DNA of 64,000 nt, from assembly GCF_018224955.1 (NCBI RefSeq), contig NZ_JAGTUU010000001.1, positions 310,001 to 374,000 on the forward strand, in the 5' to 3' direction. The notes below the pieces were generated by a model. It ran no database searches, had not been told where the DNA came from, and was given only the letters and a program-made list of their open reading frames with translations. Shown piece by piece: positions 5,257 to 55,110 of this stretch (position 1 is its first letter; every line of letters begins with the position of its first letter). The stretch is from Thetidibacter halocola. Its GTDB lineage: Bacteria > Pseudomonadota > Alphaproteobacteria > Rhodobacterales > Rhodobacteraceae. Position numbers and translations under genes: made by a program.

Positions 5257-5325
5257 AAACACGGGTCACGGCCTGTCGCGTCCCGGCGTGAAGCCTGCTA
5301 AACCGGCCCCAAGGAGGCGCCTGCC

Positions 5326-5970
5326 ATGATTCAGCTCGATATCTTTTCCGACCCGATTTGCCCCTGGTGCTATATCGGAAAGGCCCACCTGGACCGCGCG
5401 CTGGAGGCCAATCCGGACCACCCGTTCCGCATCCGCTGGCTGCCCTTTATGCTGAACCCCGACATGCCCGCCGAGGGCAAGGACCGCCGCACCTACCTCG
5501 AAACGAAATTCGGCGGCAAGGACGCGGCGGTAAAAGCCTACATGCCGGTGGCCGAGCATGCGAAAAAGGCCGGTCTTGACCTGAAGCTCGACAGTATCGC
5601 GCGCACGCCGTCCACGATCGACGCGCATCGGCTGATCCACTGGGCGGAGCTGGAAGGGGTGCAAACGCCGGTCGTCTCGGCCCTGTTCCGGGCCTATTTC
5701 ATCGAGGGCCGCGACATCGGCGATACCGAGGTGCTGGCGGACATCGCCGACGCCTGCGGCATGGATGCCAGCGTGGTGCTGCGCCTGCTGGCCAGCGACT
5801 CCGACCGGCGCGAGATCGTGGAACGCGACGCGGCGGCGCGTGGCATGGGCGTGACGGCGGTGCCAACCTTCATCGTCGCGGGCAAGCACGCAGTGCCCGG
5901 CGCACAGCCGCCCGAACTGTGGACGCAGGTCATCGCCGAGCTGCGCGAAGGGGCGGATCCGGCGGCATGA
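5326..5970 (+). CDS. DsbA-family oxidoreductase, FrnE-like
   Basis: A 214-residue thioredoxin-fold protein of the FrnE / 2-hydroxychromene-2-carboxylate isomerase branch of the DsbA superfamily. The redox motif CPWC is at residues 12-15, right after the first beta strand (IQLDIFSDPICPWC). There is no signal peptide, so it is cytoplasmic. The cis-Pro region GVTAVPTFIV lies near 184-193. The ATG has a good ribosome-binding site (AAGGAGG about 10 bases upstream). Its TGA overlaps the start of the potassium-channel gene as ATGA, so the two are probably translationally coupled. Many relatives act on polyketide or glutathione adducts, or as disulfide isomerases; which applies here is unknown. Confidence 0.88.
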   Translation: MIQLDIFSDPICPWCYIGKAHLDRALEANPDHPFRIRWLPFMLNPDMPAEGKDRRTYLETKFGGKDAAVKAYMPVAEHAKKAGLDLKLDSIARTPSTIDAHRLIHWAELEGVQTPVVSALFRAYFIEGRDIGDTEVLADIADACGMDASVVLRLLASDSDRREIVERDAAARGMGVTAVPTFIVAGKHAVPGAQPPELWTQVIAELREGADPAA

Positions 5971-6326
5971 AACGCCTGGGGCTGATCACCCTCTTCGCCA
6001 CGCCAGTGGGGATCATCGCGCTGGGCACGGTGTTCTTCCACCTGGTCGAAGGGTGGTCGCTGCTCGATTCCTATTTCTTCACCGTGGTCACGTTGTCCAC
6101 CGTGGGCTATGGCAACCTCGTGCCCGTCACCGTGGCAGGCAAGATCGCGACAACCGTCTTCATCTTGCTTGGCCTCGGCATATTCGCCGTCGCGATCCAG
6201 CAATTCGGTGTCTTCGCCATGCGAAAGCGCGAAGAACACGTGGAATGGCTGATCGGCCGGCTGGGCGAAGGCAAGGCCGCCAATGCTGACGATCCACCAG
6301 GCGAGGACAGGGACAGCCCGCGCTGA
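5967..6326 (+). CDS. Two-TM potassium channel family protein
   Basis: A 119-residue inner-membrane pore subunit. It has a first TM helix (about 6-28), a pore loop with the K+ selectivity filter TVGYG at residues 45-49, and a second TM helix (about 58-80), then a short charged cytoplasmic tail without an RCK/TrkA-N domain. The start at 5967 is chosen because it overlaps the previous stop as ATGA and gives MKRLGLITLF directly before TM1; an upstream in-frame ATG at 5919 would add 16 basic non-membrane residues inside the previous gene. It would form a KcsA-like tetramer. Its gating signal is unknown. Confidence 0.87.
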   Translation: MKRLGLITLFATPVGIIALGTVFFHLVEGWSLLDSYFFTVVTLSTVGYGNLVPVTVAGKIATTVFILLGLGIFAVAIQQFGVFAMRKREEHVEWLIGRLGEGKAANADDPPGEDRDSPR

Positions 6327-6400
6327 CCCTGCGTTTGCGCAGGTCCGACCCTGCGGAAATGGCCCTGTTCGGCATGGCCGCACGGTGTTAGCTGCGGATC

Positions 6401-7654
6401 ATGCACAGTCACGCGATCCCACAGCAGATGCCCGGACGGACCGAGTTCATCGCGCTTGTCGCGATGCTGTTCGCCACCATCGCCTTTTCCATAGACGGGA
6501 TGCTGCCCGCCCTGCCCGCGATGGCCGAGCAGTTCTCGCCCGACGCGCCGAACCGGGCGCAGTTCGTGGTCACCAGCTTCGTGCTGGGGATGGGGATCGG
6601 AACGCTGTTCACCGGGCCGTTGTCGGATGCACTGGGCCGCAAGCCGGTGGTGCTGGGCGGCGCCGCGCTCTACATCGCCGGGTCGTTCCTGGCCGCAATG
6701 GCGCAGTCGCTGGAGATGCTGCTGCTGGCGCGGCTCTTGCAGGGCCTGGGCGCCGCAGGTCCCCGCGTGGTGGCGCTGGCGATCATCCGCGACCTCTTTG
6801 CCGGGCGCGGCATGGCGCAGATCATGTCCTTCGTGATGATGGTCTTCACCATCGTGCCGGCGCTGGCGCCCTCGATCGGGGCGGGGCTGATCGCGCTCTG
6901 GGGCTGGCGGGCGGTTTTCGGTGCCTTCATCCTGTTCTCGGCCATCTCGGCGCTGTGGCTGGCGCTGCGCCTGCCCGAGACCCTGCCCGAGGAACAGAGG
7001 CGCCCCTTTCGCCTTGCGCTGATCCGCGACGCCGCGCGCGAGATGGCTGCACACCCGATGGTGCGCCTGTCCATCGTCACACAGGGCCTGTGCTTCGGCA
7101 TGCTGTTCACCATGATCTCGACCGTGCAGCCGATCTACGACCAGGCCTTTGGCCGGGCCGACAGCTTTCCGATGTGGTTCGGGATCGTGGCGATCCTCGC
7201 CGCCTCGGGCAGTTTCGTGAACGCGCGGCTGGTGATGCGGCTGGGCATGCGGCGGCTGGTCAGCCGGATGCTGCTGGCGCAGACCGGACTGAGTGCAGTG
7301 ATGGTGTTGCTGACCCTTTCGGGCCTGTCGGGAGACCCGCTCTTCGCCGCCTTCGTGACCTGGCAGGTCTCGGTCTTCTTCCAGGCCGGCCTGACGCTGG
7401 GAAACCTGAACGCGCTTGGGATGGAGCCGATGGGCCATATCGCCGGCCTGGCGGCCTCGATCATCGGCGGTGTCGCGACGGTGGTGGCGGTGGTGCTGGC
7501 GCTGCCGGTCAGCCTGGCCTTTGACGGCACACCGCTGAGCACGGCCGTGGCCATCCTCGTCTATGCCGTCCTTGGCGTCGGGCTGAGCCGCCGCATGGCG
7601 CGGCTGGAGCGCGAGGGCACCGGGTCCGCGCCCATCACGCCCGCTGCGCCCTGA
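6401..7654 (+). CDS. Bcr/CflA-family MFS drug exporter
   Basis: A 417-residue major-facilitator transporter with about 12 TM helices. The conserved loop 2-3 motif appears as GPLSDALGRKPVVLGG, and TM4 carries LLLARLLQGLGAAGPRVVAL, where the family has RxxQGxGAA followed by an Arg in the helix. This pattern is typical of the Bcr/CflA (DHA1) subgroup, which exports drugs such as bicyclomycin and chloramphenicol by proton antiport. Substrate is not predictable. It is convergent with the chemoreceptor gene, with only 15 bp between the two stops. Confidence 0.9.
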   Translation: MHSHAIPQQMPGRTEFIALVAMLFATIAFSIDGMLPALPAMAEQFSPDAPNRAQFVVTSFVLGMGIGTLFTGPLSDALGRKPVVLGGAALYIAGSFLAAMAQSLEMLLLARLLQGLGAAGPRVVALAIIRDLFAGRGMAQIMSFVMMVFTIVPALAPSIGAGLIALWGWRAVFGAFILFSAISALWLALRLPETLPEEQRRPFRLALIRDAAREMAAHPMVRLSIVTQGLCFGMLFTMISTVQPIYDQAFGRADSFPMWFGIVAILAASGSFVNARLVMRLGMRRLVSRMLLAQTGLSAVMVLLTLSGLSGDPLFAAFVTWQVSVFFQAGLTLGNLNALGMEPMGHIAGLAASIIGGVATVVAVVLALPVSLAFDGTPLSTAVAILVYAVLGVGLSRRMARLEREGTGSAPITPAAP

Positions 7655-7669
7655 CCCGGGCGCCTGCCG

Positions 7670-9214
7670 TCAGGCCACCCTGCGCCGTTGCGCCGGATGG
7701 CCCCGGCGGTTGCCGAAGGCCGCCATGCTGTCGCTCAGCGCATGGGCCTGTTCGCGCAGGCGCAGGCCCATCGCAGCCAGTTCCTCGCTTTCGCCGGCTG
7801 TGGCCTGCGTGCGCCGGTCAAGGTCCGAGATCGTCTGCGCCAGCTGTCCCATTCCGCCGGCCTGGTCCTGCGCCTCGTCGCGGATACGGCCGATCTGACC
7901 GCTGACCTCGCCGATCTGGCTGACGATCCGCGACAGCCGCTTGCCCGCCTCGTTGACCAGGTTCGCCCCCTCGGAAACCTGCGCGGCGCTGGTCGCGATC
8001 AGCGACTTGACGCCATTGGCCGCCTCGGCGGTGCGCTGCGCCAGCCCCTGCACCTCGCCCGCGACGACGGCAAAGCCACGACCCGAGTCGCCCGCGCGCG
8101 CCGCCTCGACCCCGGCGTTGAGCGCGAGAAGGTTGGTCTGGAAGGCGATGTCGTCGATCAGGTCCATGATCTGCGCAACCTCGGAAGAGCTCTTTTCGAT
8201 CAGGTGCATCGCGGCGATGGCCTGTTCGGTCACCATGCCGCCCTGCTCGGCCTCGGAGCGAGTCGCGTCGGCGCGCGAGGCCAGGGCGCTGGCCTCGTCC
8301 GCGGTCCTGCGCACCTTGCCGGTGATGTCGGTCAGGGTCTCGGCCGCGTCGCTCAGCGCCTGGGCCTGCGCCTCGTTCCGGGTTGACAGCGAGGCAGTCA
8401 TGGATTCGAGCGCGACCGCATCCTGGTTGAAGGACAGCGCCGCGTCCTGCGCCTGTTCCACCGCCTCGGCCAGCAACGCGACGGCCCGGTTGAAATCGGC
8501 GCGCAGCGCCTCGAAGCCTTCGGGCATGTCGGTCTCGATCCGGCAGTTCAGGTCGCGGTCTGCCATCTGGGAAAGGTGCGCCTGAAGACGGGTGACGACG
8601 GCCGCCGTCTCGTCCCGCTTGCGAGCGGCCTCGGCGCGGGCGGCCTCGGCCCGGTCGCTTTCCTCGGCCAGCGCGGCCCGCTGCGCCGCCATTTCACCGG
8701 CCATCGCGGCGCGCTGGAGGATCGCGATCGTCAGCAGGGCACCTTCGGCGACGACAGCGCCGCCATGGATCGCGGTGCGCACCACGTTCTCGGCCAGGTC
8801 GGCCGAGGGATAGACCAGCGACGGCAGCAGCACCGTCAGGCCCAAGTGGTGCAGCGCGACGACGCCACAACCGGTCAGCAACGGCCAGGGCGAGGGAAAG
8901 ACCGACAGGATGGCAAGCGACACGAAAAAGATCATGTGTGCGTCGATCTGCCAGGGATGACCGGCAAAGGCCGCCGTCAGCAGCATCGGCTGCGCCACGC
9001 AGCACAGCGCCAACACGTAGTCCGTCAGCCGCGAGTCGAGCCGCAGTGCAAGCCAGCCGACCAGGCCTACCGTGCAGGCGGCCGCTGCCTCGACATACAC
9101 GTCGCGTCCCAGCAAGACATCCACCAGCGCGATGAAGGGGATCATCAACCAGGTGCACGCGAGAACCGTCACCCGCTGGAATCGTGCCTCGCCATTCGAA
9201 AGAAACCGTTTCAT
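7670..9214 (-). CDS. Methyl-accepting chemotaxis protein with polytopic membrane sensor
   Basis: A 514-residue chemoreceptor. The N-terminal 170 residues form about five or six TM helices with short loops rather than the usual two TMs around a periplasmic domain. A HAMP-like/linker coiled coil follows, then a full signalling domain with the hairpin tip [20 protein letters not shown] and [20 protein letters not shown]. The start at 9214 overlaps the previous stop as ATGA; the ATG at 9232 is inside the upstream gene. It signals to CheA/CheW in the cytoplasm. The membrane-embedded input region suggests it senses something in or across the membrane, for example energy state. Confidence 0.9.
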
Positions 9215-42585: not shown

Positions 42586-44328
42586 TCAGCGCATTTCCTC
42601 GACCGGTGTGACGCCAAGGATACCAAGGCCTGCGGAAATCACAACAGCCACCGCACGTGCCAGCGCGATCTTGCTCCGGGATGTGGCCGGATCGTCCTGG
42701 ATGAAGCGCAGGCTGGTGTCGTCATTACCCATGTTCCAAAGCCCGTGCAGGTCCGAGGCGAGTTCCGTCAGGTAGGTCGCGACGCGGTGCGGCTCGTGGT
42801 TGCGGGCGGCGATCTCGACCAAGCGTGGCCATTCCGCCAGCTTGCCCGCCAACGCCAGTTCCGCCTTGTGGGTCATGCCGGACGTGTCCGCCGCCGCCAG
42901 CGTGGCGTCCGACACGTCGATCCCCTGCTCGGCCGCCTTGCGCAGCACCGAGCAGATCCGCGCATGGGCGTATTGCACGTAGAAGATCGGGTTTTCCTTG
43001 GACTGTTCCACAACCTTGTCGAAATCGAAATCCAGCGGCGCGTCGTTCTTGCGCGTCAGCATCTGGAACCGCGCGGCATCGGCGCCCACCATGTCGACCA
43101 CGTCGCGCAGCGTGACAAAAGTCCCGGCCCGCTTGGACATCTTGAAGGGCTCGCCGTTCTTGTAAAGCTTGACCAGCTGCAACAGCTTGATGTCCAGCGG
43201 CACGCGGCCGTCGGACAGCGCCGAAACCGCCGCCTTCATCCGCTTGACGTAGCCGCCATGATCGGCGCCGAAGATGTCGATCAGCTGGTCGAAACCGCGG
43301 GTGATCTTGTCATAGTGATAGGCGATGTCGGGGGCGAAATAGGTCCAGCTGCCGTCCGATTTCATGATCGGGCGGTCGACATCGTCGCCATGCTCGGTGG
43401 ACTTGAACAGGGTTTGTTCGCGCGGCTCCCAATCCTCGGGGGTCTTGCCCTTGGGCGGCTGCAACACGCCGCGATAGATCAGGCCCTTGGCGCGCAGGCT
43501 CTCGATGGCCGCCTCGATCTTGCCCGTGCCATACAGCGACTTCTCGGAAAAGAAGTGGTCCATGTGCACGCCAAGTGCGGCCAGGTCCTCGCGGATCAGG
43601 TCCATCATCGCGTCGGTGGCGAATTCGCGCACCGGCTCCAGCCAGACCTCCTCGGGGGCGTTCAGCCAGATGTCGCCCACCTTGGCCTTGAGCGCCTCGC
43701 CCACCGGCTCCAAGTATTCGCCGGGATAGGATTCCGCGGGCCAGTCCACCGTCAGGTCATGCGCCTCGAGATAGCGGTTGTAGACCGACCGGGCGAGGAC
43801 ATCGACCTGCGCGCCGCCATCGTTGATATAGTATTCGCGCGTCACGTCATAACCGGCATAGGCCAGCAGGCTGGCGATGGCGTCGCCCACGATGGCGCCG
43901 CGGGCATGACCGACATGCATCGGCCCTGTCGGGTTGGCCGAGACATATTCCACGTTGACCTTCAGCCCTGCGCCCAGGTCAGAGCGCCCGTAATCCCGGC
44001 CCAGCCGCAGGATCGCCGCAGGCAGGCCCTGCCAGACGGTGTTTTCCAGCCGCAGGTTCAGGAAGCCGGGCCCGGCAACCTCGGCGCTGGCGATGCGCGG
44101 GTCGTCCGCCAGCTTCGCGGCCAGCGTCTCGGCGATGTCGCGCGGCTTCAGGCCGGCGGGCTTGGCCAGCACCATCGCGGCGTTCGTGGCCATGTCGCCA
44201 TGCAGCGGGTCGCGCGGCGGCTCGACGGTGACGGGATCGGTGTTGAGCCCCTCGGGCAGCGCGCCCTCTGCCTGCATCGCGGCGATGGCGCCCAGCACGG
44301 CGGTGCGGATATCGGAAAAGAGGTTCAT
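42586..44328 (-). CDS. argS: Arginyl-tRNA synthetase
   Basis: ArgS charges tRNA-Arg with arginine. The 580-residue class I enzyme has the HIGH motif as HVGH at 138-141 within [18 protein letters not shown], and the KMSKS-like motif KMSKRAGTF near 370. The N-terminal Add-1 domain (about 1-110) and the C-terminal DALR anticodon-binding helices (with [18 protein letters not shown]) are complete. The start at 44328 ([11 protein letters not shown]) matches the family; the frame open to 44400 adds nothing like it. Confidence 0.96.
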
Positions 44329-44411
44329 GGATAGGCTCCTGCGTGACGGGCACCCTCTATCATGTGGATCGGGCGGGTCAAACAGGATCGGTTTTCTCAC
44401 GCCCCCGCCAG

Positions 44412-46250
44412 TCAGCCCGCCTGTCCGCCCCCCTGCCGGCGCTCCTGCCGGGCTGGCATCAAGGCAATGAAGCGCGCGCCTTTGTTCGCCTTGGGCCGTT
44501 CTCCTTCCGCGAACAGGCGCAGCGTTCCGTTCGGGCCCATTTCGGCGGTGATGATGGCCTCGGGATGCTTGGCGATCCAGTCGTCCATGGTGAATTCCTC
44601 GGTCACGCGCGTGACGCGGAATTCCCAGCCCTCGGACAGGCGCGCGTTGGCGTCGAAGAAGGTGTCGTCGGCGCCGATCGCCCTTCCGCCCAGCGTGGCG
44701 GGCAGCGCGTGGCGGGTGCTGGACTGCTTGACTCGCTTGAGCTGAAAGATGTTCTCGCGGCCGAATTCCGGCGCGAGATCGGTAGCGGCCAGCGTGTTGT
44801 AGGCATCGTTGTCGGTGGCGCAGATCAGCTTTTCATAGGCCGCTAGTTCCAGCCGGTGTTCGGCCGCCTCGGACAGGATGTCGCCCCAGAAGACCGGCAA
44901 ACCCGCCTCGCGCGCGGCGCGCAGATGGGCGTGGTTCGCATCGGCCACCATCACCGGCAGTTCCAGCTTGGTCAGCGCCTGGCCCAGCGCCACCGACCAG
45001 CGGCTGCCGCCCAGGATCAGCACGCCGGGCGCCTCGGAGGCCGACAGGCCCAGCAGCCGTGCCATCGGCGCAAGGGTGAATCCATGCAGCACCACCGTGG
45101 CCGAGACCAGCGCAAAAGCCAGCGGTGCGATGCGGTCGGCATCGGCGATGCCCAGGCTGACCAGCCGCTCGCCGAACAGGCCCGCCACCGCCACCAGCAC
45201 CACGCCGCGCGGCCCGGTGAAGGCCACCAGCAGGCGTTCGCGCCACGGGATATTGGAAAAGGCCAGCGCGGCCAGAACCGGCAGCGGCCGCGCCACCAGG
45301 ATCACGGCCAGGACAAAGGCCGCAGCCCGCCAATCCAGCGTCGACAGCACGTCCAGGCTCATCCCCGCCGCCAGCAGGATGAACACGCCCGAAACCAGCA
45401 GGATCGTCGCGTGTTCCTTGAAGCGCCGCATCTCAGCGTAGCTTGGCAGGTCGGCATTGGCGATCCACAGCCCCATGATCGTCACGGCCAGCAGCCCGGA
45501 TTCGTGCAGCACGGAGTCGGACATCGCAAAGACACCCAGCATGACCACGAACAGCACCGGCACCTTCATGTACTCCGGCACCCAGGCCATGCGGAACGCC
45601 TTGGACAGGCCCCAGCCCGCTGCGCCGCCCAGCACGCTCGCCACCGCGATTCCGGTCAGCAGCGCACCCGCCGCCTCGGCCGGGCCGGTGGCGGTCTGCA
45701 TCACGATGACCACCTCGAAGGCCAGCACGGCAGCCAGCGCGCCGACCGGATCGTTGACGATCGCCTCCCATTGCAGCAGGGCGGCGGGACGTTTCGACAG
45801 CCGCGCCTGCCTCAGGAGCGGCGCGATCACGGTCGGACCGGTGACGATCATGATGCCACCAAAGACCGCCGCCGCCTCGATGCTGAGGCCCGCAACATAA
45901 TAGAGCGCGGCGGTCGAGGCCGCCCAGCCCAGCGGCCCGCCGACGATCACCAGCCGCCGCACGCCCTTGGCAGCGTCGGACAGCGACCGAAAGTTCAGCG
46001 TGAGGCCGCCCTCGAACAGGATGATCGCGACGGCGATGGCGACCATCGGCGCCAGCATGTCGCCGAACTGCTCCCGCGGATTGAGCAGGCCCAGCCCCGG
46101 CCCGATGATCAGACCTGCCAACAGCATCAGCACGATCGCCGGCAGGCGCAACCGCCAGGCCAGCCACTGGCTGCCGACGCCCAATGCACCCACCAGCGCA
46201 AAGGCCAGTGTCGCGTCCAGCCCGCTGGACGCAGCCTCGGTTACTGCCAT
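44412..46250 (-). CDS. CPA1-family sodium/proton antiporter with TrkA-like tail
   Basis: A 612-residue inner-membrane antiporter. About 12-13 TM helices span residues 10-395, with the ion-binding region [20 protein letters not shown] (the ND pair of electroneutral CPA1 antiporters) and [21 protein letters not shown] cytoplasmic Rossmann/RCK-like domain follows (about 405-520) with [20 protein letters not shown]-type sequence and [20 protein letters not shown], then a C-terminal beta-rich segment. The start at 46250 has GAGGGG about ten bases upstream. It sits between argS and dgt, where many relatives have no antiporter. Confidence 0.88.
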
Positions 46251-46255
46251 TCTTG

Positions 46256-46921
46256 TTACCCCTCGTCCGTCAAACGGTCCTGCCCCAACGCTCCCGCCTC
46301 TTGCGGGTTCCATGACAGGATGACACCGCCCTTCAGCCCGCGCGAGGCGTTTTCCGACAGCGACAGGATCGCGTCGGCGGCCGAGTCGATCTCGGCCCCG
46401 GTCCAGTCCGGGTGCGGCGGAAAGGACAGGCCCAGCATCCGGCCCGGCCGAAGGTCGCTGTCCAGTTGCCGCACCAGCCCCTCGAAGCTGCGCGGCGCGG
46501 CATCGCTGCCCTCGATCCGCGGCACGGCGATCACGCCGCGCGCGCTACCGGCGCGGATGCCCTGCCCCAGCGCCGCGGCCAGCGCGGCGGCCCGCGCGAT
46601 GCGTTCGCTGCCCTGCGCCTCGGGAGTCTCGGCCAGCGCCATCAGGTCGACATAGACCGTGACCGGCATGGCGCCCCAGGCTTCGCGCAGATGGGTGAAA
46701 AGCGCTCCGCGACCCGGGCGCAGCCCGAGGGTATCGACCATCGGGCCGACGGCGCGGGCGATATTCATTAGGCATTCCTCGTCGGCGCCGATTGCCACGC
46801 CGCGCAGGCCGCGCGCCACCAGCCGCTCCAGCAGGCAACGACCCACCGGGTGCTCGGCACCGCCGATCACGGCGACGGGTTCGGGCGGTATATCGCGTTT
46901 CCTGGTGGCGGGCTGGATCAT
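46256..46921 (-). CDS. Rossmann-like (SDR-related) protein of unknown function
   Basis: A 221-residue soluble protein. The N-terminus EPVAVIGGAEHPVGRCLLER has a glycine-rich nucleotide-binding turn, followed by an alternating beta/alpha pattern with VTVYVDLMALAE and GVIAVPRIEG. The catalytic Tyr-x-x-x-Lys of SDR enzymes is absent, so a dehydrogenase activity is doubtful. Its stop is five bases before the antiporter start, so the two are almost certainly one operon. It could supply a nucleotide-sensing partner for the antiporter; that is inference. Confidence 0.6.
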   Translation of the reverse strand: MIQPATRKRDIPPEPVAVIGGAEHPVGRCLLERLVARGLRGVAIGADEECLMNIARAVGPMVDTLGLRPGRGALFTHLREAWGAMPVTVYVDLMALAETPEAQGSERIARAAALAAALGQGIRAGSARGVIAVPRIEGSDAAPRSFEGLVRQLDSDLRPGRMLGLSFPPHPDWTGAEIDSAADAILSLSENASRGLKGGVILSWNPQEAGALGQDRLTDEG

Positions 46922-46967
46922 GGCCGGTGTTCTGCCATAACCGCGCCGACGCGCCTAGCGCGCATCG

Positions 46968-48155
46968 TCAGCTTCCGTCCCGCATCACGTCCTCGCCGGT
47001 CAGGCGCGCGTGTTCCTGGAGTGCGAACCGGTCGGTCATGCCGGCAATGTAATCTGCGACCAGCCGCGCCAGCGCGGTTTCGGTCGTCGCGGCCTCGATC
47101 TCGGACTGCCAGCGCCGCGGCAGCAGCGCGGGGTCGTTCATGTATAGCGGGAACAGCGCTTCGAGCGCGCGGGTCACGCGGGCGCGCTGCTCCATGACGC
47201 GGGGCGCGCGATACATGTTGGCAAAGAGAAAGGCGCGGATGTCGCGGATCGCCGCGGTCATGCCCGAGGAAAAGGCGATCACCGGGTGGCCCAGGTCACG
47301 GATCGCCTGCGCGTCGGCACAACCCGCCGCCTGAAGACGGGCCCGCGATGTCTCCAGCACGTCGCCGACCATGGCGCCGAAGACCCGCCGCAGCGCCTCG
47401 TGCTGGCGGCGATAGGGATCGAGACACGGATAGCGCGCATCGACCTCGGCGTAGGCCGGACCGACCAGCGGCAGGTGGGCGATCTGCTCTTCCTCGAATA
47501 GCCCGGCGCGCAACCCGTCATGCAGGTCGTGGTTGTTGTAGGCGATATCGTCGGAAAGCGCCGCGACCTGTGCCTCGGCGCTGGCGTGACTGTGCAGTTC
47601 CAGGTCGTGCAAGGCGTTGTATTCCGCCAAGGCATAGGGCAGTGGGCCGAGGGAGATCGGCAGGCCATCCGGGCCGACGACCGGGCCGTTATGCTTGGCG
47701 ATGCCTTCGAGCGTGTCCCAGGTCAGGTTCAGCCCGTCGAACTCGGCGTAATGGCGCTCCAGCCTTGTCACGATGCGGATGGTCTGCGCGTTGTGGTCGA
47801 ACCCGCCATAGGGATGCATCAGCGCGTTCAGCGCATCCTCGCCGGTATGGCCGAAGGGCGTGTGACCCAGGTCATGCGCCAGCGCCACCGCCTCTGTCAG
47901 GTCGGTATCCAGACCCAGCGCGTTCGAGATCGTGCGCGCGACCTGCGCCACCTCGATCGAATGCGTCAGCCGGGTGCGATAGAAATCGCCCTCGTGTTCG
48001 ACGAAGACCTGCGTCTTGTGCTTCAGCCGCCGGAAGGCGCTGCAATGGATGATGCGGTCGCGGTCGCGCTGGAAGCACGAGCGAAAGGCGCTTTCCTCTT
48101 CAGGATGAAGCCGCCCGCGCGCCTGCGCGGGATCGCATGCATAGGCCGCCGGCAT
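46968..48155 (-). CDS. dgt: Deoxyguanosinetriphosphate triphosphohydrolase-like protein
   Basis: A 395-residue HD-domain dNTPase. The metal-binding HD motif is in VALAHDLGHTPFGHTGEDAL, and RDRDRIIHCSAFRRLKHKTQ near the N-terminus binds the triphosphate; LTHSIEVAQVARTISNALGL and LSDDIAYNNHDLHDGLRAGL complete the family pattern. Dgt-like proteins hydrolyse dNTPs to deoxynucleosides and triphosphate and so shape dNTP pools. It is divergent from erpA with a 78-bp spacer, the arrangement typical of Rhodobacterales. Confidence 0.93.
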   Translation of the reverse strand: MPAAYACDPAQARGRLHPEEESAFRSCFQRDRDRIIHCSAFRRLKHKTQVFVEHEGDFYRTRLTHSIEVAQVARTISNALGLDTDLTEAVALAHDLGHTPFGHTGEDALNALMHPYGGFDHNAQTIRIVTRLERHYAEFDGLNLTWDTLEGIAKHNGPVVGPDGLPISLGPLPYALAEYNALHDLELHSHASAEAQVAALSDDIAYNNHDLHDGLRAGLFEEEQIAHLPLVGPAYAEVDARYPCLDPYRRQHEALRRVFGAMVGDVLETSRARLQAAGCADAQAIRDLGHPVIAFSSGMTAAIRDIRAFLFANMYRAPRVMEQRARVTRALEALFPLYMNDPALLPRRWQSEIEAATTETALARLVADYIAGMTDRFALQEHARLTGEDVMRDGS

Positions 48156-48233
48156 TGCGCGCCGCTCCTTGTCGTCCGTCCCGATGCCTCATATATTCTT
48201 CATTGACGCGAAGATAAACCGCCGAGGATCGCC

Positions 48234-48557
48234 ATGAACCTGCCACCCAAAGTCACCGAACGCGCCTTTGACCGCCTGGCCGAGATCGGCGCGGGCAACG
48301 AGGGCAAGGCGCTGCGCGTGGCCGTCGAAGGCGGTGGCTGCTCGGGCTTTCAATACGAGATCAAGCTGGACGATCCCGCAACCGAGGACCTTGTGATCGA
48401 GGGACAAGGCCAGCGGGTCGTCGTCGACCCGGTTTCGCTGCCTTTCCTCGCCGGCGCGGTGATCGACTTTTCCGACGAGCTGATCGGCGCGCGCTTCGTC
48501 ATCGACAACCCGAACGCCTCAAGTTCCTGCGGTTGCGGCACGTCCTTCTCGATCTGA
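48234..48557 (+). CDS. erpA: A-type iron-sulfur carrier (ErpA/HesB family)
   Basis: A 107-residue A-type carrier that passes Fe-S clusters to apoproteins. The three ligand cysteines are Cys36 (EGGGCSGFQY), Cys99 and Cys101 (SSCGCGTSFSI at the C-terminus). A-type carriers are close enough that ErpA, IscA and SufA are hard to tell apart; the neighbour dgt favours ErpA. An 11-bp-arm terminator follows 20 bp after the stop. Confidence 0.9.
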   Translation: MNLPPKVTERAFDRLAEIGAGNEGKALRVAVEGGGCSGFQYEIKLDDPATEDLVIEGQGQRVVVDPVSLPFLAGAVIDFSDELIGARFVIDNPNASSSCGCGTSFSI

Positions 48558-48577
48558 CGGGTTTACCGGACAAGCCA

Positions 48578-48601
48578 AAGGGCGCCCCGAGGGGCGCCCT
48601 T
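48578..48601. terminator. Terminator between erpA and the EamA exporter
   Basis: AAGGGCGCCCC (48578-48588) and GGGGCGCCCTT (48591-48601) are exact complements; with a four-base loop the stem is ten pairs. It lies between two convergent genes and has short T-runs on both sides, so it can stop transcription from erpA and from the repeat-peptide operon. Confidence 0.75.
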
Positions 48602-48618
48602 GTCGTTGAACACGAGAC

Positions 48619-49488
48619 TCAGGCCCGGGCGGTGCGGCCGCGCACCACGCTTTCCTCGGCCACCAGCCACAGGCCCGAGGCGATGACCAGCATCACGCCC
48701 AGCACCGTGCCCGTGCCCGGCACCTCGCCGAAGGCGGCCATGCCGATGGCGACCATCCAGACGAATTGCAGGTTCATCAGCGGCGTCGCGACATAGGCGG
48801 GCAGCAGGCGCAGCGCCTCGGCCACCACGTAACGTGCGCCGAACAGCGCCACCGCGTAGGCCATGACCCAGCCGAAATCCGTCGCGGTCATCGGCTGCCA
48901 GACAAAGGGCAGCGCCACGCCCATGGTCAGCATCAGGCCAAGATTGGGCCAGAAGACCTGCGCCAGCGGCTTGCGCTCCTGCCGCGCGATCACCCGCGCG
49001 GCCAGCATCGAGCCGCAGCCGGTCAGCGCCGCCAACAGCGCCCAGGCATGGCCTGCCTGCGCCGCGCTGAGACCGCCGGGCATCAGGAACAGGATTCCCC
49101 CTGCCCCAAGGCTCAGCGCCATCCAGGCCATCGGGCGCGGCGTCTCGCCCAGCACCGGGCCGGACAGGGCCGCGGCAAACAGCGGGATCAGCCCGATGAA
49201 CAGGAACACGTCGGCGAAGGGCAGCAGCCGGAATGCCATGAAGAAGGCCAGCGACGCGATCACCGTCAGCCCCGTGCGCAACGCCATCACGCCCCGCGCC
49301 TGCACCCGCAGCCCCTCACCGGTCTGCCGGGCGGCGGCGGCGGAGAAGGCGCAGACCATCAGCGCCGAGAGCGCAAACAGCTGCGGCGCGGAATAGCCGC
49401 CGGCGATCAGCTTGGTGATGCCGTCGGCGGCGGCCATCATGCCGGTGTAAAGCACCACCAGCACGGCCCCGAGGGTCGCGCCCTTCAT
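48619..49488 (-). CDS. EamA/DMT-family transporter (third gene of the repeat-peptide operon)
   Basis: A 289-residue inner-membrane protein with ten TM helices in two EamA repeats: the first with LGAVLVVLYTGMMAAADGIT, ARQTGEGLRVQARGVMALRT and LPFADVFLFIGLIPLFAAAL, the second with WALLAALTGCGSMLAARVIA and VAIGMAAFGEVPGTGTVLGV. DMT exporters carry amino acids, nucleosides or small peptides outward. The start at 49488 overlaps the stop of the 352-residue gene as ATGA. In this position it is the natural candidate to move the repeat peptide or its products, although no DMT protein is known to me to export a peptide as large as 160 residues. Confidence 0.88.
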   Translation of the reverse strand: MKGATLGAVLVVLYTGMMAAADGITKLIAGGYSAPQLFALSALMVCAFSAAAARQTGEGLRVQARGVMALRTGLTVIASLAFFMAFRLLPFADVFLFIGLIPLFAAALSGPVLGETPRPMAWMALSLGAGGILFLMPGGLSAAQAGHAWALLAALTGCGSMLAARVIARQERKPLAQVFWPNLGLMLTMGVALPFVWQPMTATDFGWVMAYAVALFGARYVVAEALRLLPAYVATPLMNLQFVWMVAIGMAAFGEVPGTGTVLGVMLVIASGLWLVAEESVVRGRTARA

Positions 49489-50543
49489 GCTGCACCCGCC
49501 CGGGCAAACCCTTCGAAGAAGGCGTCGAAATGCACGCTCGAGGCGGCTGCGATCTCGATCAGATCGACGGTTTCGGGAGACAGGTGTGGCGCCATGCGCC
49601 GTCGCATCACGGGCCACTCGCCGCAACGCGCGCCCTCGAGTTCCATCAGCGCAAGGCTGATCTCGCGCAGCGGCGCGGGGCGCGCGGCGCGGTCGAACCG
49701 CGTCCGTTCCATCGCGACCGGTATCCGGAACACCGGCGCGCCGACCGTCGCCGCGTGCCAGTTGCACACGAAGAACTCGTGGTAATCGTCCTGCAAGGGC
49801 ACGCCGGGGCCGCTTTCGGTGGCAAAGCCGCGGGTCTGCGCGCCAAGCCAGTCGGTCCAGATCTCGGGCGGCGTCTCTCCGGCATGGATCAGCGCGATGC
49901 AGATCTCGGCCAGCAGGTCGGCATTCTGTTCGAGGAAGGCGGTCAGCCCGGCGAAATGCAGGCTGCGGACCGCCGATTGCGGCAGGCGCGGGTCGCGGCG
50001 ACCGTATTCCGACAGGTAATAAGCGATATGGGTCAGCTCGTAGGCCGCTTTCTTGTTCGGCAGGGCAAAGGTGCGGTCGCGGGCAGCGAAGGCGCGCAGC
50101 CGGTCGTCCAGCCCCGGATCGTTCAGCGGATCGATGCCGCGCCGCATCATCAGCCGCCGCGCCTCGGCGCGTTGCAGGTCCGACAGTTCGGCATCGGCCA
50201 GGCCCTGGTCGGCGGCGAAATGCGCCATCCGTTCGCCCGCATCACCCTTCATGCCCAGTGCTTCGATATCCAGCGTCAAAGACAGGATAAAGCGGTAGTA
50301 CTGAGGAAAGAAACGCAGGCGTTCCTCTGCCCGGGTGTAAAAACCCTCATGCACGGCAAGGGACGCCGGATCGACGGAGATGCCCGTGCATTCCAGGATG
50401 TTCAGAAGCTCGGCGTTTTCCTTCAGCCAGAACACGTCGTCCTCGACCCGCCGCTGCGTGGCGAAAAGCCCGATCAGCGCCGAGACACGCTCTGCCATTG
50501 GTGCGATTCGGGACGGAAGGGAAAGCTGGATAACGGTGCCCAT
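49485..50543 (-). CDS. Helical 352-residue protein, second gene of the repeat-peptide operon
   Basis: A soluble, probably all-helical protein that I cannot name with certainty. Histidine-bearing motifs suggest an active or metal site: AYELTHIAYYLSEYG (ELTH at 169-172), DDYHEFFVCNWHAAT (Tyr254-His255, His263), and an LLAEICIALIHAGE helix (210-223). The ELTH...YG and D-x-YH pattern reminds me of helical DUF proteins found near biosynthetic genes, which I could not check. No Fe-S, flavin, ATP or methyltransferase motif is visible. The start at 50543 (MGTVIQLSLPSRIAPM) follows AGGAGCAG; the frame is open upstream through the repeats but reads as low-complexity. It lies 64 bp after the peptide gene and overlaps the exporter. 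Confidence 0.8.
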   Translation of the reverse strand: MGTVIQLSLPSRIAPMAERVSALIGLFATQRRVEDDVFWLKENAELLNILECTGISVDPASLAVHEGFYTRAEERLRFFPQYYRFILSLTLDIEALGMKGDAGERMAHFAADQGLADAELSDLQRAEARRLMMRRGIDPLNDPGLDDRLRAFAARDRTFALPNKKAAYELTHIAYYLSEYGRRDPRLPQSAVRSLHFAGLTAFLEQNADLLAEICIALIHAGETPPEIWTDWLGAQTRGFATESGPGVPLQDDYHEFFVCNWHAATVGAPVFRIPVAMERTRFDRAARPAPLREISLALMELEGARCGEWPVMRRRMAPHLSPETVDLIEIAAASSVHFDAFFEGFARAGAA

Positions 50544-50607
50544 GATCTGCTCCTGTCGATTGGTGTGGCGTCGGGGCGGCCTGGGCCGCCCCCGCACGGG
50601 GTGGGGA

Positions 50608-51090
50608 TCAGGCCTTGACCGGGCCGGACCACGAGGTGAAGGCCTCGACATTGTCGCCGGTGCCACGCTCGCCGCGCGCCGGGCCGGACCAGGAGGTGAA
50701 CGCCTCGACCGCGTCGCCTGCGTCGCGGGCGGTGGTCGACGGGCCGGACCACGAGGTGAAGGCCTCGACATTGTCGCCGGTGCTACGCTCGCCGCGCGCC
50801 GGGCCGGACCAGCTGGTGAACGCCTCGACCGCGTCGCCTGCATCGCGGGCGGTGGTCGACGGGCCGGACCACGAGGTGAAGGCCTCGACATTGTCGCCAG
50901 TGCCGCGCTCGCCGCGTGCCGGGCCGGACCAGGAGGTGAAGGCCTCGACCGAGCAGCCCGATGCCAGGTCACCCGCTGCGGGTCCCGACCACGAGGTGAA
51001 CGCCTCGACGGCGTCGCCGGTCAGGGCCGCGGTGGTGCCACGGGTCGAAAGGATTTCTTCAGACTTCAGGTGCTTCTTGAGAGCGGTCAT
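50608..51090 (-). CDS. Leader plus seven-copy VEAFTSWSGP repeat peptide (candidate multi-core precursor)
   Basis: A 160-residue protein: a 27-residue leader (MTALKKHLKSEEILSTRG then TTAALTGDA), six 20-residue units and a final 13-residue unit. Each unit begins with VEAFTSWSGP, identical in all seven. The 10-residue spacers alternate between ARGERGTGDN-type (one copy reads ARGERSTGDN) and STTARDAGDA; the first is AAGDLASGCS and the last is VKA. The Ser codon before Trp is TCG, TCC or AGC across copies, and Ala and Gly codons also change, always silently, which shows this frame is the coding one. AAAGGAG lies seven bases before the ATG. No signal peptide is seen. A RiPP-like precursor is the leading idea; a structural repeat protein is the alternative. 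Confidence 0.85.
   Translation of the reverse strand: MTALKKHLKSEEILSTRGTTAALTGDAVEAFTSWSGPAAGDLASGCSVEAFTSWSGPARGERGTGDNVEAFTSWSGPSTTARDAGDAVEAFTSWSGPARGERSTGDNVEAFTSWSGPSTTARDAGDAVEAFTSWSGPARGERGTGDNVEAFTSWSGPVKA
50620..51009 (-). repeat. 60-bp tandem repeat, seven copies, inside the peptide gene
   Basis: The DNA repeats with an exact 60-bp period without gaps; the most conserved 30 bp of each unit encode VEAFTSWSGP, and a 120-bp super-period comes from the alternating spacers. Codons 28-157 of the peptide gene are covered. Confidence 0.93.
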
Positions 51091-51103
51091 CGTGTTTCTC
51101 CTT

Positions 51104-51112
51104 TGTGGATGA
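51104..51112 (-). promoter_or_regulatory. Near-match DnaA box
   Basis: TGTGGATGA matches the complement of TTATCCACA at eight of nine positions, just upstream of the peptide gene's ribosome-binding site. Confidence 0.35.
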
Positions 51113-51191
51113 GTGGTTTGATGACCAAACGATGCGCGCCCTGCATGAAATCTGGGAAGTGTTTTCTAGTTAAAGTTTATTAACTTTTGAA

Positions 51192-51200
51192 TTATCCACA
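51192..51200 (+). promoter_or_regulatory. Perfect DnaA box 1
   Basis: TTATCCACA, the strong DnaA-binding 9-mer. On the minus strand the same bases give GATAAT, a good -10-like hexamer facing the repeat-peptide gene, so DnaA could block that promoter. Confidence 0.6.
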
Positions 51201-51266
51201 TGAAGATTGATCACCAAAATTTGTTGCCAAAACGGAAACAAAAGATCTCCACAGGCACAAGTTTTC

Positions 51267-51275
51267 TGTGGATAA
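51267..51275 (-). promoter_or_regulatory. Perfect DnaA box 2
   Basis: TGTGGATAA, the exact complement of the DnaA 9-mer, 75 bp from box 1. The DNA between them is unusually AT-rich for this genome. Confidence 0.6.
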
Positions 51276-51392
51276 CTGTTTTTCGCCCCAGGCAACGGCC
51301 ATCGAACGCCCTTCATGCAACACGAATCGGGTCTGCTTGCGTCCCGGCGCGGCATGGGCGATAGCTGGATCAAACGTCCGGAGGCGCGCCAA

Positions 51393-52175
51393 ATGAAGAT
51401 CGCAACCTTCAACATCAACGGCATCAAGGCGCGGCTGACCGCCCTCACCGACTGGCTGGACGAGGCGCAGCCCGATGTCGTCCTGTGCCAGGAGATCAAG
51501 TCGGTCGACGAGGCCTTTCCCCGCGAGCCTTTCGAAGACCGCGGCTACAATGTCGAAACGCACGGGCAGAAGGGGTTCAACGGCGTTGCAATCCTGTCGA
51601 AACATCCGCTCGAGGACGTGACGCGCGGCCTGCCGGGCGACGACAGCGACGAACAGGCCCGCTGGATCGAGGCGACGGTGATTGGCGAGAAGCATGCCTG
51701 CCGGCTCTGCGGTCTGTATCTGCCCAACGGCAACCCGGCGCCGGGTCCGAAATACGACTACAAGCTGGCCTGGATGGAACGGCTCGAGGCGCGCGCGCGC
51801 GATCTGTTGGCGTCCGAGATGCCGGCGATGATGGCAGGCGACTACAACGTGATCCCGCAGCCCGAGGATGCCGCCCGCCCCGAGGCCTGGACCGAGGACG
51901 CGCTGTTCCGCCCCGAGACGCGCGCGGCGTTCCGGCGGATCGTGAACCTCGGCTTCACCGAGGCGTTCCGCGCCCGCGTGCAGGCGCCGGGACATTACTC
52001 GTTCTGGGATTACCAGGCGGGCGCATGGGAAAGAGACAATGGCATACGCATCGACCACCTGCTGCTGACGCCGCAGGCCGCGGACCTGATGACCGATTGC
52101 CAGATCGACCGCGCCGTGCGCGGCCGCGACAAGCCGTCGGATCACGTGCCGGTCTGGGTCGACCTGGATCTCTGA
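51393..52175 (+). CDS. xthA: Exodeoxyribonuclease III
   Basis: A 260-residue AP endonuclease / 3'-5' exonuclease of the EEP fold. Motifs are KIATFNINGIKARL at the N-terminus, CQEIKSVDEAFP with the metal-binding Glu, GLYLPNGNPAPGPKYDYKLA, MMAGDYNVIPQPED (Asp-Asn), and the C-terminal catalytic pair in IRIDHLLLTPQ and KPSDHVPVWVDLDL. It repairs abasic sites and 3' blocks. The start at 51393 has GGAGG nine bases upstream; the frame opens earlier at 51315 without a site. It is convergent with rnd. Confidence 0.95.
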   Translation: MKIATFNINGIKARLTALTDWLDEAQPDVVLCQEIKSVDEAFPREPFEDRGYNVETHGQKGFNGVAILSKHPLEDVTRGLPGDDSDEQARWIEATVIGEKHACRLCGLYLPNGNPAPGPKYDYKLAWMERLEARARDLLASEMPAMMAGDYNVIPQPEDAARPEAWTEDALFRPETRAAFRRIVNLGFTEAFRARVQAPGHYSFWDYQAGAWERDNGIRIDHLLLTPQAADLMTDCQIDRAVRGRDKPSDHVPVWVDLDL

Positions 52176-52206
52176 GGCCGGGGGGGGGGGCGAGGCGCAC
52201 GGCGTA

Positions 52207-52227
52207 GGGCGGGATTTCGTCCCGCCC
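52207..52227. terminator. Hairpin between convergent xthA and rnd
   Basis: GGGCGGGA (52207-52214) pairs with TCCCGCCC (52220-52227) around a five-base loop. Together with the short spacer it probably serves both genes. A run of eleven G residues lies just before it at 52180-52190. Confidence 0.55.
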
Positions 52228-52234
52228 GGGTCGT

Positions 52235-53392
52235 TCAGATCTCGATGACCTTGACGGTCTTGCCTTTTGCCGCCAGCGCGATCCGCCCGTCACACAGCCG
52301 CAGCGCATCCTCGCCGAAGACCTCGCGCCGCCAGCCCGACAGCGCCGCCACGTCACGCGCGCCGCTGGCGATGCGGTCCAGATCGGCGGCCTGCGCGATC
52401 AGCTTGGACGCGACGCCGAAATCCTCGGTCTTGGCCTTGAGCAAGACCCGCAGCAGGTCGGCCAGCGCCGGGTTGACCTGAGCCTTGTCGGCTTCCTCCT
52501 CGACGCGGGGCAGGTCTTCCTTGGGGCAGTTCACGCCGCGATCCACAGCGGCGAGAATCCCGTCGGCGATCTCGCCCTTGCGCGCCTCGCGCAGCAACAG
52601 GCGCGAGCGGCCAAGGTCCTGGTGCGTCACAGGCTTGGTCGAGGCCAGCTCGACCAGCGCATCGTCCTTGAACACCCGGCTGCGCGGGATGTTGCGCGAC
52701 TGGGCGAAATCCTCGCGGAACGCCGCCAGTTCCCGCACGATGGCCAGGAAGCGCGGGCTGGAGGACCGCGTCTTGACCCGCATCCACGCCTCATGCGGGC
52801 GGGTGATGTAGGTTTCCGGGTCCATCAGCACGCCCAGTTCCTCGGCCACCCAGCGGTCGCGGCCGGACTCGTGCAGCTTGCGGTTCAGAAACTCGTAGAT
52901 CTGGCGCAGATGGGTCACGTCGGCCAGCGCGTATTTCTTTTGCGCGTCGGTCAGCGGGCGGCGCGACCAGTCGGTAAAGCGGCTGGACTTGTCGACCTGC
53001 GCCTTGGCGATGCGCTTGACCAGCGTCTCGTAGCCCACCTGCTCGCCGAAGCCGCAGACCATCGCGGCCACCTGGGTGTCGAAGAGCGGCGCCGGGATCA
53101 CGCGATTGTCGATGAAGAAGATTTCCAGGTCCTGCCGCGCCGCGTGGAACACCTTGACGATGTTCGGGTCGCGGAACACCTCCAGCAGCGGCTCGAGTGA
53201 CAGGCCGTCTTCCAGTGGATCGATCAGGACCGCGTCGGCATCGTCCTTGCCGGGCAAGGCCAACTGCACCAGGCAGAGTTTCGAATAGTAGGTCCGTTCC
53301 CGCAGGAATTCGGTATCCACGGAGACATAGGGCTGACCCTTGGCACGCGCGCAAAAGGCGGCGAGGGCGTCGGTCGTGGTGATGGTCTGCAT
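52235..53392 (-). CDS. rnd: Ribonuclease D
   Basis: A 385-residue 3'-5' exoribonuclease that trims tRNA precursors. The DEDD-type catalytic residues are in YVSVDTEFLRERTYYSKLCL, KVFHAARQDLEIFFIDNRVI and the KKYALADVTHLRQIYEFL segment. Two HRDC domains follow (about 210-290 and 295-380). It has the usual RNase D length. It starts 84 bp before purN on the same strand. Confidence 0.94.
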   Translation of the reverse strand: MQTITTTDALAAFCARAKGQPYVSVDTEFLRERTYYSKLCLVQLALPGKDDADAVLIDPLEDGLSLEPLLEVFRDPNIVKVFHAARQDLEIFFIDNRVIPAPLFDTQVAAMVCGFGEQVGYETLVKRIAKAQVDKSSRFTDWSRRPLTDAQKKYALADVTHLRQIYEFLNRKLHESGRDRWVAEELGVLMDPETYITRPHEAWMRVKTRSSSPRFLAIVRELAAFREDFAQSRNIPRSRVFKDDALVELASTKPVTHQDLGRSRLLLREARKGEIADGILAAVDRGVNCPKEDLPRVEEEADKAQVNPALADLLRVLLKAKTEDFGVASKLIAQAADLDRIASGARDVAALSGWRREVFGEDALRLCDGRIALAAKGKTVKVIEI

Positions 53393-53476
53393 AGGGTCGG
53401 ATCTTCTTCTTTCGTTATTGTCGCGGCACCCCGTGTGCCAGTGTATACCATGCCATGCGCATAGGGAAAAGCACGC

Positions 53477-54067
53477 TCACGGCAGCAGAACGGCAGTTCG
53501 GTCCCCGGCGGCGAAGCGGCGCAGCACAGCCGGATACAGGATGTGCTCCTGCTCAAGAACGCGGGCGGCGAGCGTCTCGGGCGTGTCGCCCGGCAGGATC
53601 GGCACCCGCGCCTGGCCCAGGATCGGGCCATCGTCCAGAGCTGGCGTGACCTCGTGCACCGTGCAGCCGGCCTCGGTGTCGCCTGCTGCGAGCGCGCGGG
53701 CATGAGTGTGCAGCCCGCGGTATTTCGGCAAGAGCGACGGGTGGATGTTGAGCATTCGGCCCGCCCACGGCGTCACGAAATGAGCGGTCAGGACGCGCAT
53801 GAACCCGGCAAGGCAGATCAGGTCGGGCTCATGCGGCGCCAGCGCCGCCTGTAGCGCATCCTCGAAGCCCACGCGATCACCCTTGAACGGGCGGTGATCC
53901 ACAACCTCGGTCGGGACGCCCAGGGCGCGCGCCCTGGCTAGGCCGCCCGCATCGTCGGAATTGGCCAGCACCACGCAGGGCCGCGCCGGGTGGTCGCCTG
54001 TCATGTCTCGGGCAAGGGCCACCATGTTCGACCCGCCGCCCGAGATCAGGATCGCGACGCGCCTCAA
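53477..54067 (-). CDS. purN: Phosphoribosylglycinamide formyltransferase
   Basis: PurN formylates GAR with 10-formyl-THF in purine synthesis. The 196-residue protein has [20 protein letters not shown] at the N-terminus, [20 protein letters not shown], the catalytic-loop [19 protein letters not shown], and the [13 protein letters not shown] segment with the catalytic Asp near 143. Its ATG overlaps the purM stop as ATGA, so the two are translationally coupled. Confidence 0.95.
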
Positions 54068-55110
54068 ACCAGCCGGCCCTCGTAGTGCATGCCGGGCGTG
54101 TCGGTGACATGGCCCAGGCGCAGCACCGTCTCACCCGCCTGCGTCAGCAGGTCCGTTAGCGCATCCGCCCGGTCGGCGGCGACGACGGCAACCATGCCGA
54201 TGCCGCAGTTGAAGGTCTTGAGCATCTCTGCCTCGGCGATGTCGCCCACGCCGCGCATCCAGCGGAAGATGTCGGGCAGCGCCCAAGCCGAAAGGTCGAT
54301 CGTCGCGCCCATGCCCTCGGGCAGCACTCGCGGCAGGTTCTCTGTCAGGCCGCCGCCGGTGATGTGGGCCAGGCCATGCACGCCGCCCGCCTTCACCGCC
54401 GCCAGCGCCGGCCGCACATACAGCCGCGTCGGCGTCAGCAACTGTTCGCCCAGCGTGCCCGCGCCCCAGGGACAGGCCGCATCCCAGTCGATACCAGACA
54501 GTTCCACCAACTTGCGCACCAGGCTGTAGCCGTTGGAATGCACCCCGTCCGAGGCCAGCCCCAGCAGCACGTCGCCCACCGCGACATCCGCGGGCAGCGC
54601 GCCGCCGCGTTCCATCGCGCCGACAGCGAACCCGGCCAGGTCGAAATCGCCCGCCGGATACATGCCCGGCATTTCCGCCGTTTCGCCGCCGATCAGCGCG
54701 GCGCCCGAGCGCAGGCAGCCCTCGGCGATGCCCTCGATCACCCGCGCGGCAACTTCTGTCTCCAGCTTGCCGGTGGCGAAGTAGTCGAGGAAGAACAACG
54801 GCTCCGCCCCCTGGCAGACCAGGTCGTTGACACACATGGCGACCAGGTCGATGCCGACGCCGTCGACCAGGCCGGTGTCGATGGCAATGCGCAGCTTGGT
54901 CCCCACGCCATCCGTCGCCGCGACCAGCACCGGGTCGTTGTAGCCCGCCGCCTTAAGGTCGAACAGCGCGCCGAAGCCACCGAGGCCCGATACCGTGCCC
55001 GGGCGGTCGGTGCGTTTCGCCGCCGGCTTGATCCGCTCGACCAGCGCATTGCCCGCATCGATATCCACGCCCGCCTGCGCGTAGGTCATCCCTGTCTTGC
55101 CGTTGGTCAT
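54064..55110 (-). CDS. purM: Phosphoribosylformylglycinamidine cyclo-ligase
   Basis: PurM closes the imidazole ring to give AIR, using ATP. The protein has 348 residues. Family markers are [80 protein letters not shown] and the [20 protein letters not shown] stretch. The start at 55110 is the ATG giving [16 protein letters not shown]; a longer frame to 55779 runs antisense to the next gene. It is coupled to purN. Confidence 0.96.

Follow-up and report, generated by a model that had tools for sequence, protein, structure and literature searches.

Multi-core RiPPs are represented by the cyanobactins, the microviridins, and the fungal dikaritins. Lasso peptides offer another point of comparison. 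MslH, the peptide epimerase of the lasso peptide MS-271, has a calcineurin-like fold and is reported to epimerize by His/Asp acid-base chemistry without an organic cofactor (PMC10406935). In the literature searched, DUF6895 is mentioned by a single review (PMC13352647), which cites Shi et al. (2026), a paper whose title refers to an epimerase of the DUF6895 family in the context of lasso-peptide modification. The literature searched contained no mention of the related family DUF6902, and, as far as these searches go, the system of a repeat-peptide gene and a DUF6902 gene that is analyzed here would be undescribed. Many Rhodobacteraceae appear to carry such a repeat-peptide gene together with a gene for an uncharacterized, probably core-modifying enzyme.

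The cassette was found in a stretch of 64,000 nucleotides from Thetidibacter halocola (the window), and its features are listed in Table 1. Reading of the open frames confirmed the layout described in the initial annotation, i.e., a peptide of 160 residues with seven exact VEAFTSWSGP units, a protein of 352 residues that begins 64 bp further on, and an EamA gene that overlaps with the latter by 4 bp (ATGA). The ribosome-binding site that had been noted is also present (AAAGGAG, 7 bases ahead of the precursor ATG), and a consensus scan of the cassette found no sigma-70-type promoter. The units start at residues 28, 48, 68, 88, 108, 128, and 148, thus with a spacing of 20 residues; the spacers between them alternate, and the copies differ from one another by synonymous codons. 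The TRF scores of 608 (period 120) and 399 (period 60) were obtained for the repeat, and the former, together with the existence of 94 other distinct precursors, argues against a chance repeat. The genome of the window contains one precursor gene and one DUF6902 gene, and the GC content of the cassette is ordinary and matches that of its surroundings. The strong terminator postulated before is confirmed only in part. The 66-nt hairpin region folds better than shuffled sequences (z -2.44; 6 of 200 shuffles were equally good), but hardly any T tail follows the stem (48601-48578) and it is absent from the list of the consensus terminator scan.

Table 1. Features of the cassette and their positions in the window.
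Feature	Position	Strand	Remarks
Multi-core precursor peptide, 160 aa	50608..51090	minus	ATG at 51090; leader of about 24 aa followed by seven VEAFTSWSGP units (probable core FTSWS)
Precursor leader MTALKKHLKSEEILSTRGTTAALT	51019..51090	minus	many relatives have similar leaders of the form M[ST]A-x-x-K
DUF6902 protein, 352 aa	49485..50543	minus	candidate core-modifying enzyme; invariant E45, Y168, H172, D209, E213, Y254, H255
EamA-family transporter, 289 aa	48619..49488	minus	candidate exporter; some relatives without EamA
GC-rich 10-bp hairpin, possible terminator	48578..48601	minus	between EamA and the convergent erpA

The cassette had been described as an undescribed three-gene system. However, the family of the 352-residue protein is a known one, as it belongs to Pfam DUF6902 (PF21843; 1.8e-153, 511 bits versus a cut-off of 27, residues 1-349 of 352) and is kin to DUF6895 (PF21836; 2e-19, 70.5 bits versus a cut-off of 23.8), and EamA is optional (see below). 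All 66 DUF6902 proteins of set A1 match both families. The third protein passes the EamA cut-off in two stretches (PF00892; 45.7 bits versus 28.2); the query began seven residues before 49488 in the Pfam, NCBIfam, and locus scans, and at 49488 in the PADLOC, PHROGs, and hydropathy analyses. A Kyte-Doolittle plot of this protein has eight hydrophobic segments, two of which are each long enough for two helices, which is compatible with, but no proof of, the ten transmembrane helices that had been assigned to it. Its sequence (48622-49488) is also similar to phrog_18638 (1.1e-20), a family of phage proteins to which no function is assigned. The precursor matches no Pfam or NCBIfam family, apart from a single chance-level Pfam line (E 1.9). 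Pfam and NCBIfam scans of the three cassette proteins found neither a protease or leader-binding domain nor a known maturation enzyme or a known oxidase family.

DUF6902 is present in 69 of 248 genomes of the Rhodobacteraceae, the family of the window, and among 385 genomes sampled from the class four have a protein above the cut-off, all of them from the same family. The precursor profile A3 matches 64 of the 248 genomes, every one of which is among the 69 with DUF6902, and none of the 179 genomes without it. Inspection by eye revealed three precursors that the profile had missed, which are short and have two copies (L167, L168, and L169), so that a repeat precursor accompanies DUF6902 in 67 of 69 genomes. 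The other two of the five DUF6902 genomes outside the profile matches are G139, a contig-edge fragment in which the precursor is not judgeable, and G039, which has a divergent DUF6902 and no visible precursor. Two properties by which RiPP systems are recognized were thus found, namely a small precursor gene in a conserved pair with a dedicated enzyme gene, and a leader and a conserved core that can be discerned by comparison. The RiPP-like order with repeated cores and an uncharacterized maturation protein, as proposed in the initial annotation, is supported. The expectation that the genes travel together was strongly borne out for precursor and DUF6902, but not for EamA, which is present in 62 of 80 loci (L032-L111, the best 80 of 291 candidates). 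Therefore, the unit consists of two genes and an optional exporter. Among the 18 loci of this sample (best 80 of 291) that lack EamA, 16 have erpA right after DUF6902, i.e., a clade of 14 rows (12 titled Marivita) as well as L091 and L095, and L079 and L096 have other genes there. Half of 20 further divergent DUF6902 regions (10) contain EamA. The order xthA-precursor-DUF6902-EamA-erpA-dgt, known from Rhodobacteraceae, was also seen on a contig of Enemella evansiae (L045), by its name presumably an actinobacterium, and therefore this record may be mislabeled or contaminated.

The genomic site does not support the inserted accessory module that had been supposed. Nine flanking ORFs (42589-55110) were scanned with Pfam, and eight belong to housekeeping families, while 46259-46921 matches none. 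The neighbors that we take to be erpA, xthA, and dgt have Fe-S biosynthesis, exo/endonuclease/phosphatase, and HD domains, respectively. Among the best 80 of 291 loci (L032-L111), xthA lies upstream in 74, the other six having at most 1053 bp there, and erpA lies downstream in 64; the 16 loci without erpA comprise two short contigs and 14 that have other genes within 5 kb. The gene xthA is also found in 18 of the 20 further divergent regions. The exceptions are L171, a short contig, and L177 (G234), around which neither xthA nor erpA is seen, so that at least this DUF6902 copy lies elsewhere. Eight cassette-less genomes, which were found among the best 30 of 77 erpA matches (L198, L200, L204, L210, L213, L218, L219, and L220), have an erpA-xthA spacing of 52-699 bp, and the two widest gaps could fit a small gene. 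The shared xthA/erpA site, the ordinary GC content, and these eight loci argue against a recent insertion, and the place beside xthA is an old and widely shared one, with gains or losses. A phage origin was also considered, but a scan of viral contigs gave 55 pattern matches, none of which is a relative, and the PHROGs matches are restricted to EamA (phrog_18638) and, weakly, the repeats (phrog_32007). DUF6902 has no plasmid match, and the precursor has weak matches on two plasmids, which fall within coding sequences labeled autotransporter and TPR protein. PADLOC gave no match to a defense system.

The anatomy of the precursors was deduced from 95 distinct sequences from 111 loci, including that of the window, which encode 97 distinct DUF6902 proteins. 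Besides the window's own copy, the sample comprises the 80 best of 291 candidate loci and the 30 best of 70 matches, which biases the counts toward close relatives; the counts omit L029 and L032 (repeat masked by N) as well as L073 (masked, no anchored core), and six of the 95 ORFs are truncated at the edge of a contig or locus. If a copy may deviate from the dominant 5-mer of its precursor at no more than one position, the 95 precursors contain 789 copies, 740 of which are identical to that 5-mer (in L079, one of 11). The dominant 5-mers are of 26 different kinds, and the copy number ranges from 4 to 20 with a median of 8. The leaders mostly have 21-34 residues and start with M[ST]A or similar (a few starts were misplaced by the script). 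The precursor ends 36-137 bp before DUF6902 in 94 of 95 cases and 342 bp before it in one. Because 62 of 95 ORFs stop precisely where their final 5-mer does, the core is probably FTSWS, and not all ten residues of VEAFTSWSGP, so that of the earlier proposal the repeated cores are retained, but not their length. Precursors of the window type (FTSWS) extend a few residues past the core, and the final copy in L039 reads FTSWS-VKA, without GP.

For core positions 1-4 the majority within a precursor is 1.00, versus 0.59-0.95 between genomes, and the non-synonymous share of codon differences is 0.049 in the core and 0.671 in the spacer (94 precursors in both cases, L048 being omitted as well), figures in which the choice of copies with at most one mismatch favors the core. 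With core-blind anchors the agreement is 89-93%; a few of the exceptions are genuine second cores, e.g., three FSSLS in L053 and three VSSCS in L008, and the others look like anchors set at the wrong place. On a quick 97-tip tree of DUF6902, which has strong support for only 20 of its 94 inner branches and for which the cores of L029/L032, L073, and L079 were assigned by hand, at least 25 changes occur at core positions 3-4, and Trp versus another residue at position 3 changes three times. The enzymes of L086 and L094 are close (branches 0.025 and 0.023), but the core is uniformly FSSGS in one precursor and uniformly FTSGS in the other. The overall pattern looks like concerted core switching. 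In one genus (L134 of G922 and L135 of G950), a quite different many-copy core, STSSF, lies beside DUF6902. Some records read N within the repeat array (L029/L032, L048, and L073), and in G027 precursor matches lie at the ends of two contigs (C6 and C20); therefore, assemblies may fail on these precursors.

For the enzyme, AlphaFold2 with 66 sequences predicted a fold that is nearly all helix (pLDDT 93.5, pTM 0.91). Foldseek gave no match in the PDB at E 0.001 or better (best E 0.08), and sequence searches of the PDB with DUF6902 found no similar solved structure. An alignment of 19 sequences, nine of DUF6902 and ten of the DUF6895 type from Pseudomonadota, Actinomycetota, Bacillota, and Gemmatimonadota, revealed eight invariant residues, i.e., G181 (window numbering) and the seven polar residues listed in Table 1. 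All 97 DUF6902 proteins conserve them, as do seven additional divergent homologues that were examined, a check that excludes L168, which was missed by the motif filter. The homologue of G039 (L166, 2292-3428; about 26% identity) is an open frame flanked by xthA and erpA, in which the eight positions are occupied by F, V, Q, G, L, R, L, and T, so that all seven polar residues are lost. As this genome has no visible precursor, this one case links the putative polar center with the substrate, and the homologue may have taken on a new function.

Ten loci of the DUF6895 type, none of them DUF6902, were judged by eye (L129-L133 and L186-L190); the latter five are tblastn relatives outside the Pfam scan, and five further family matches below the cut-off were left uncounted. 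A small precursor-like ORF lies just upstream on the same strand in nine of the ten loci, a count made by eye with no control for chance small upstream ORFs. Also by eye, Trp is found in the presumed core of eight of these nine, examples of cores being GPWYIYK, GPWFVL, GPWYAYH, DWTFVSPNYVYKG, AWAFIVKGKFVFK, and EWELATKHFLL, and seven of the ORFs have a leader-like motif in common, [AS]G-[ILA]-[ILV]-[ND]. No such ORF was visible in L188, and that of L190 is weak. The former, on a Streptomyces chartreusis plasmid, has two tandem DUF6895-type genes, which lie in a stretch for which no genes are listed (4619-6903). In L129 (G719, 5490-8703), the precursor-like ORF with GPWFVL and the DUF6895 gene lie near genes for an O-methyltransferase and a papain-like (C39/C70) cysteine protease, possibly a fuller maturation set.

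We propose that the observed genes, repeats, tight pairing, core constancy, and invariant residues belong to a multi-core RiPP-type system with DUF6902 as the core epimerase, a reading to which we assign a probability of about 0.5. That the two genes form a RiPP-type substrate-enzyme pair with some chemistry, be it epimerization or another, is quite likely. We infer recognition, modification by epimerization, cleavage, and export as follows. The ribosome would produce a precursor in which a short leader precedes numerous copies of a single core (in the window, FTSWS in G-x-x-VEA-FTSWS-GP). DUF6902 would bind to the leader and/or to the G-[DE] element ahead of each core and would alter the cores one after another, the likeliest change being the L-to-D epimerization of a core residue by a His/Asp/Glu/Tyr center in the all-helical fold, which may hold a metal. 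Proteases from other loci would cut the chain such that the fifth residue becomes the C-terminus of the core, and in strains that have EamA this transporter would export the product, leading to one peptide "dialect" per strain. The epimerase reading derives from one paper title (Shi et al., 2026) and a distant family link (14-18% identity); the step itself is suggested by this kinship and by the invariant His, Asp, Glu, and Tyr residues, which are reminiscent of the His/Asp pairs reported for MslH.

It is somewhat unlikely that DUF6902 catalyzes another reaction within the same RiPP-type pair, e.g., a metal-dependent oxidation, a hydroxylation, or a cross-link on core Phe/Trp/Ser/Thr. The two His, one Asp, two Glu, and two Tyr, all invariant, could hold one or two metals, and the nearly all-helical model has no solved relative. 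Moreover, the cores beside DUF6902 are without Trp except for the window type (W at position 3 in 28 of 97 tips), unlike most cores beside DUF6895, and therefore the reaction may differ. However, epimerization is the only activity of the superfamily that was seen named, in a title, and no known oxidase family was matched in Pfam or NCBIfam. The lack of a classical RiPP modification enzyme in the cassette would also fit a peptide that is secreted or cut but chemically unchanged, with DUF6902 as a protease, chaperone, or carrier that frees or delivers the units, and a defined cut is likely because the ORF ends coincide with the core end. This is improbable, as DUF6902 matches no protease family and the precursor-like ORFs beside DUF6895 hold one or two cores, so that no separation of many units is needed there. 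Least credible is a repeat protein that is no precursor but functions intact within the cell as a scaffold or binding protein, partnered by DUF6902; the absence of a hydrophobic stretch or signal peptide from the precursor by hydropathy and its single copy in the window genome would agree with it, but the copy number varies from 4 to 20, the spacers diverge around a stable core, this core closes 62 of 95 ORFs, and the DUF6895 kin have short peptides with one or two cores.

If the reading of DUF6902 as a core epimerase is true, it would provide a function for Pfam DUF6902 and a wider function for DUF6895. It would define a compact two-gene RiPP type, in which presumably no enzyme would be recognized by a cluster finder, and would supply dozens of naturally occurring core variants together with the enzymes that match them. 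More tentatively, the system might represent an undescribed peptide language of the Rhodobacteraceae, with 4-20 copies of one core per lineage, many concerted switches, and iterative maturation by a new helical, non-radical epimerase superfamily that would extend over at least four phyla and act on one- to many-core precursors outside lasso clusters. A core that is constant per strain and changes in concert would suit a signal or a self-specific antimicrobial.

The closest known relatives are the DUF6895 proteins. The likeness consists of a significant profile match (2e-19), common invariant polar residues, and a precursor-like ORF at nine of ten loci, as judged by eye. In contrast, DUF6902 is 14-18% identical to the three DUF6895 proteins aligned, and its precursor is multi-core and has another leader. 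A lasso peptide system can be rejected for the window, because the flanks scanned (nine ORFs, 42589-55110) contain no genes for a macrolactam synthetase, a leader peptidase, or a recognition element, whereas the DUF6895 title concerns lasso peptides. As reported for MslH, DUF6902 would epimerize by His/Asp acid-base chemistry without an organic cofactor. However, MslH has a calcineurin-like fold and belongs to a lasso system, and such a fold is rejected for DUF6902 by a model that is nearly all helix (pLDDT 93.5). With other multi-core RiPPs the system has in common a single precursor with repeated cores and spacers, and it differs from them in that Pfam and NCBIfam recognize no known maturation enzyme in the cassette and in that the core is nearly invariant within each precursor.
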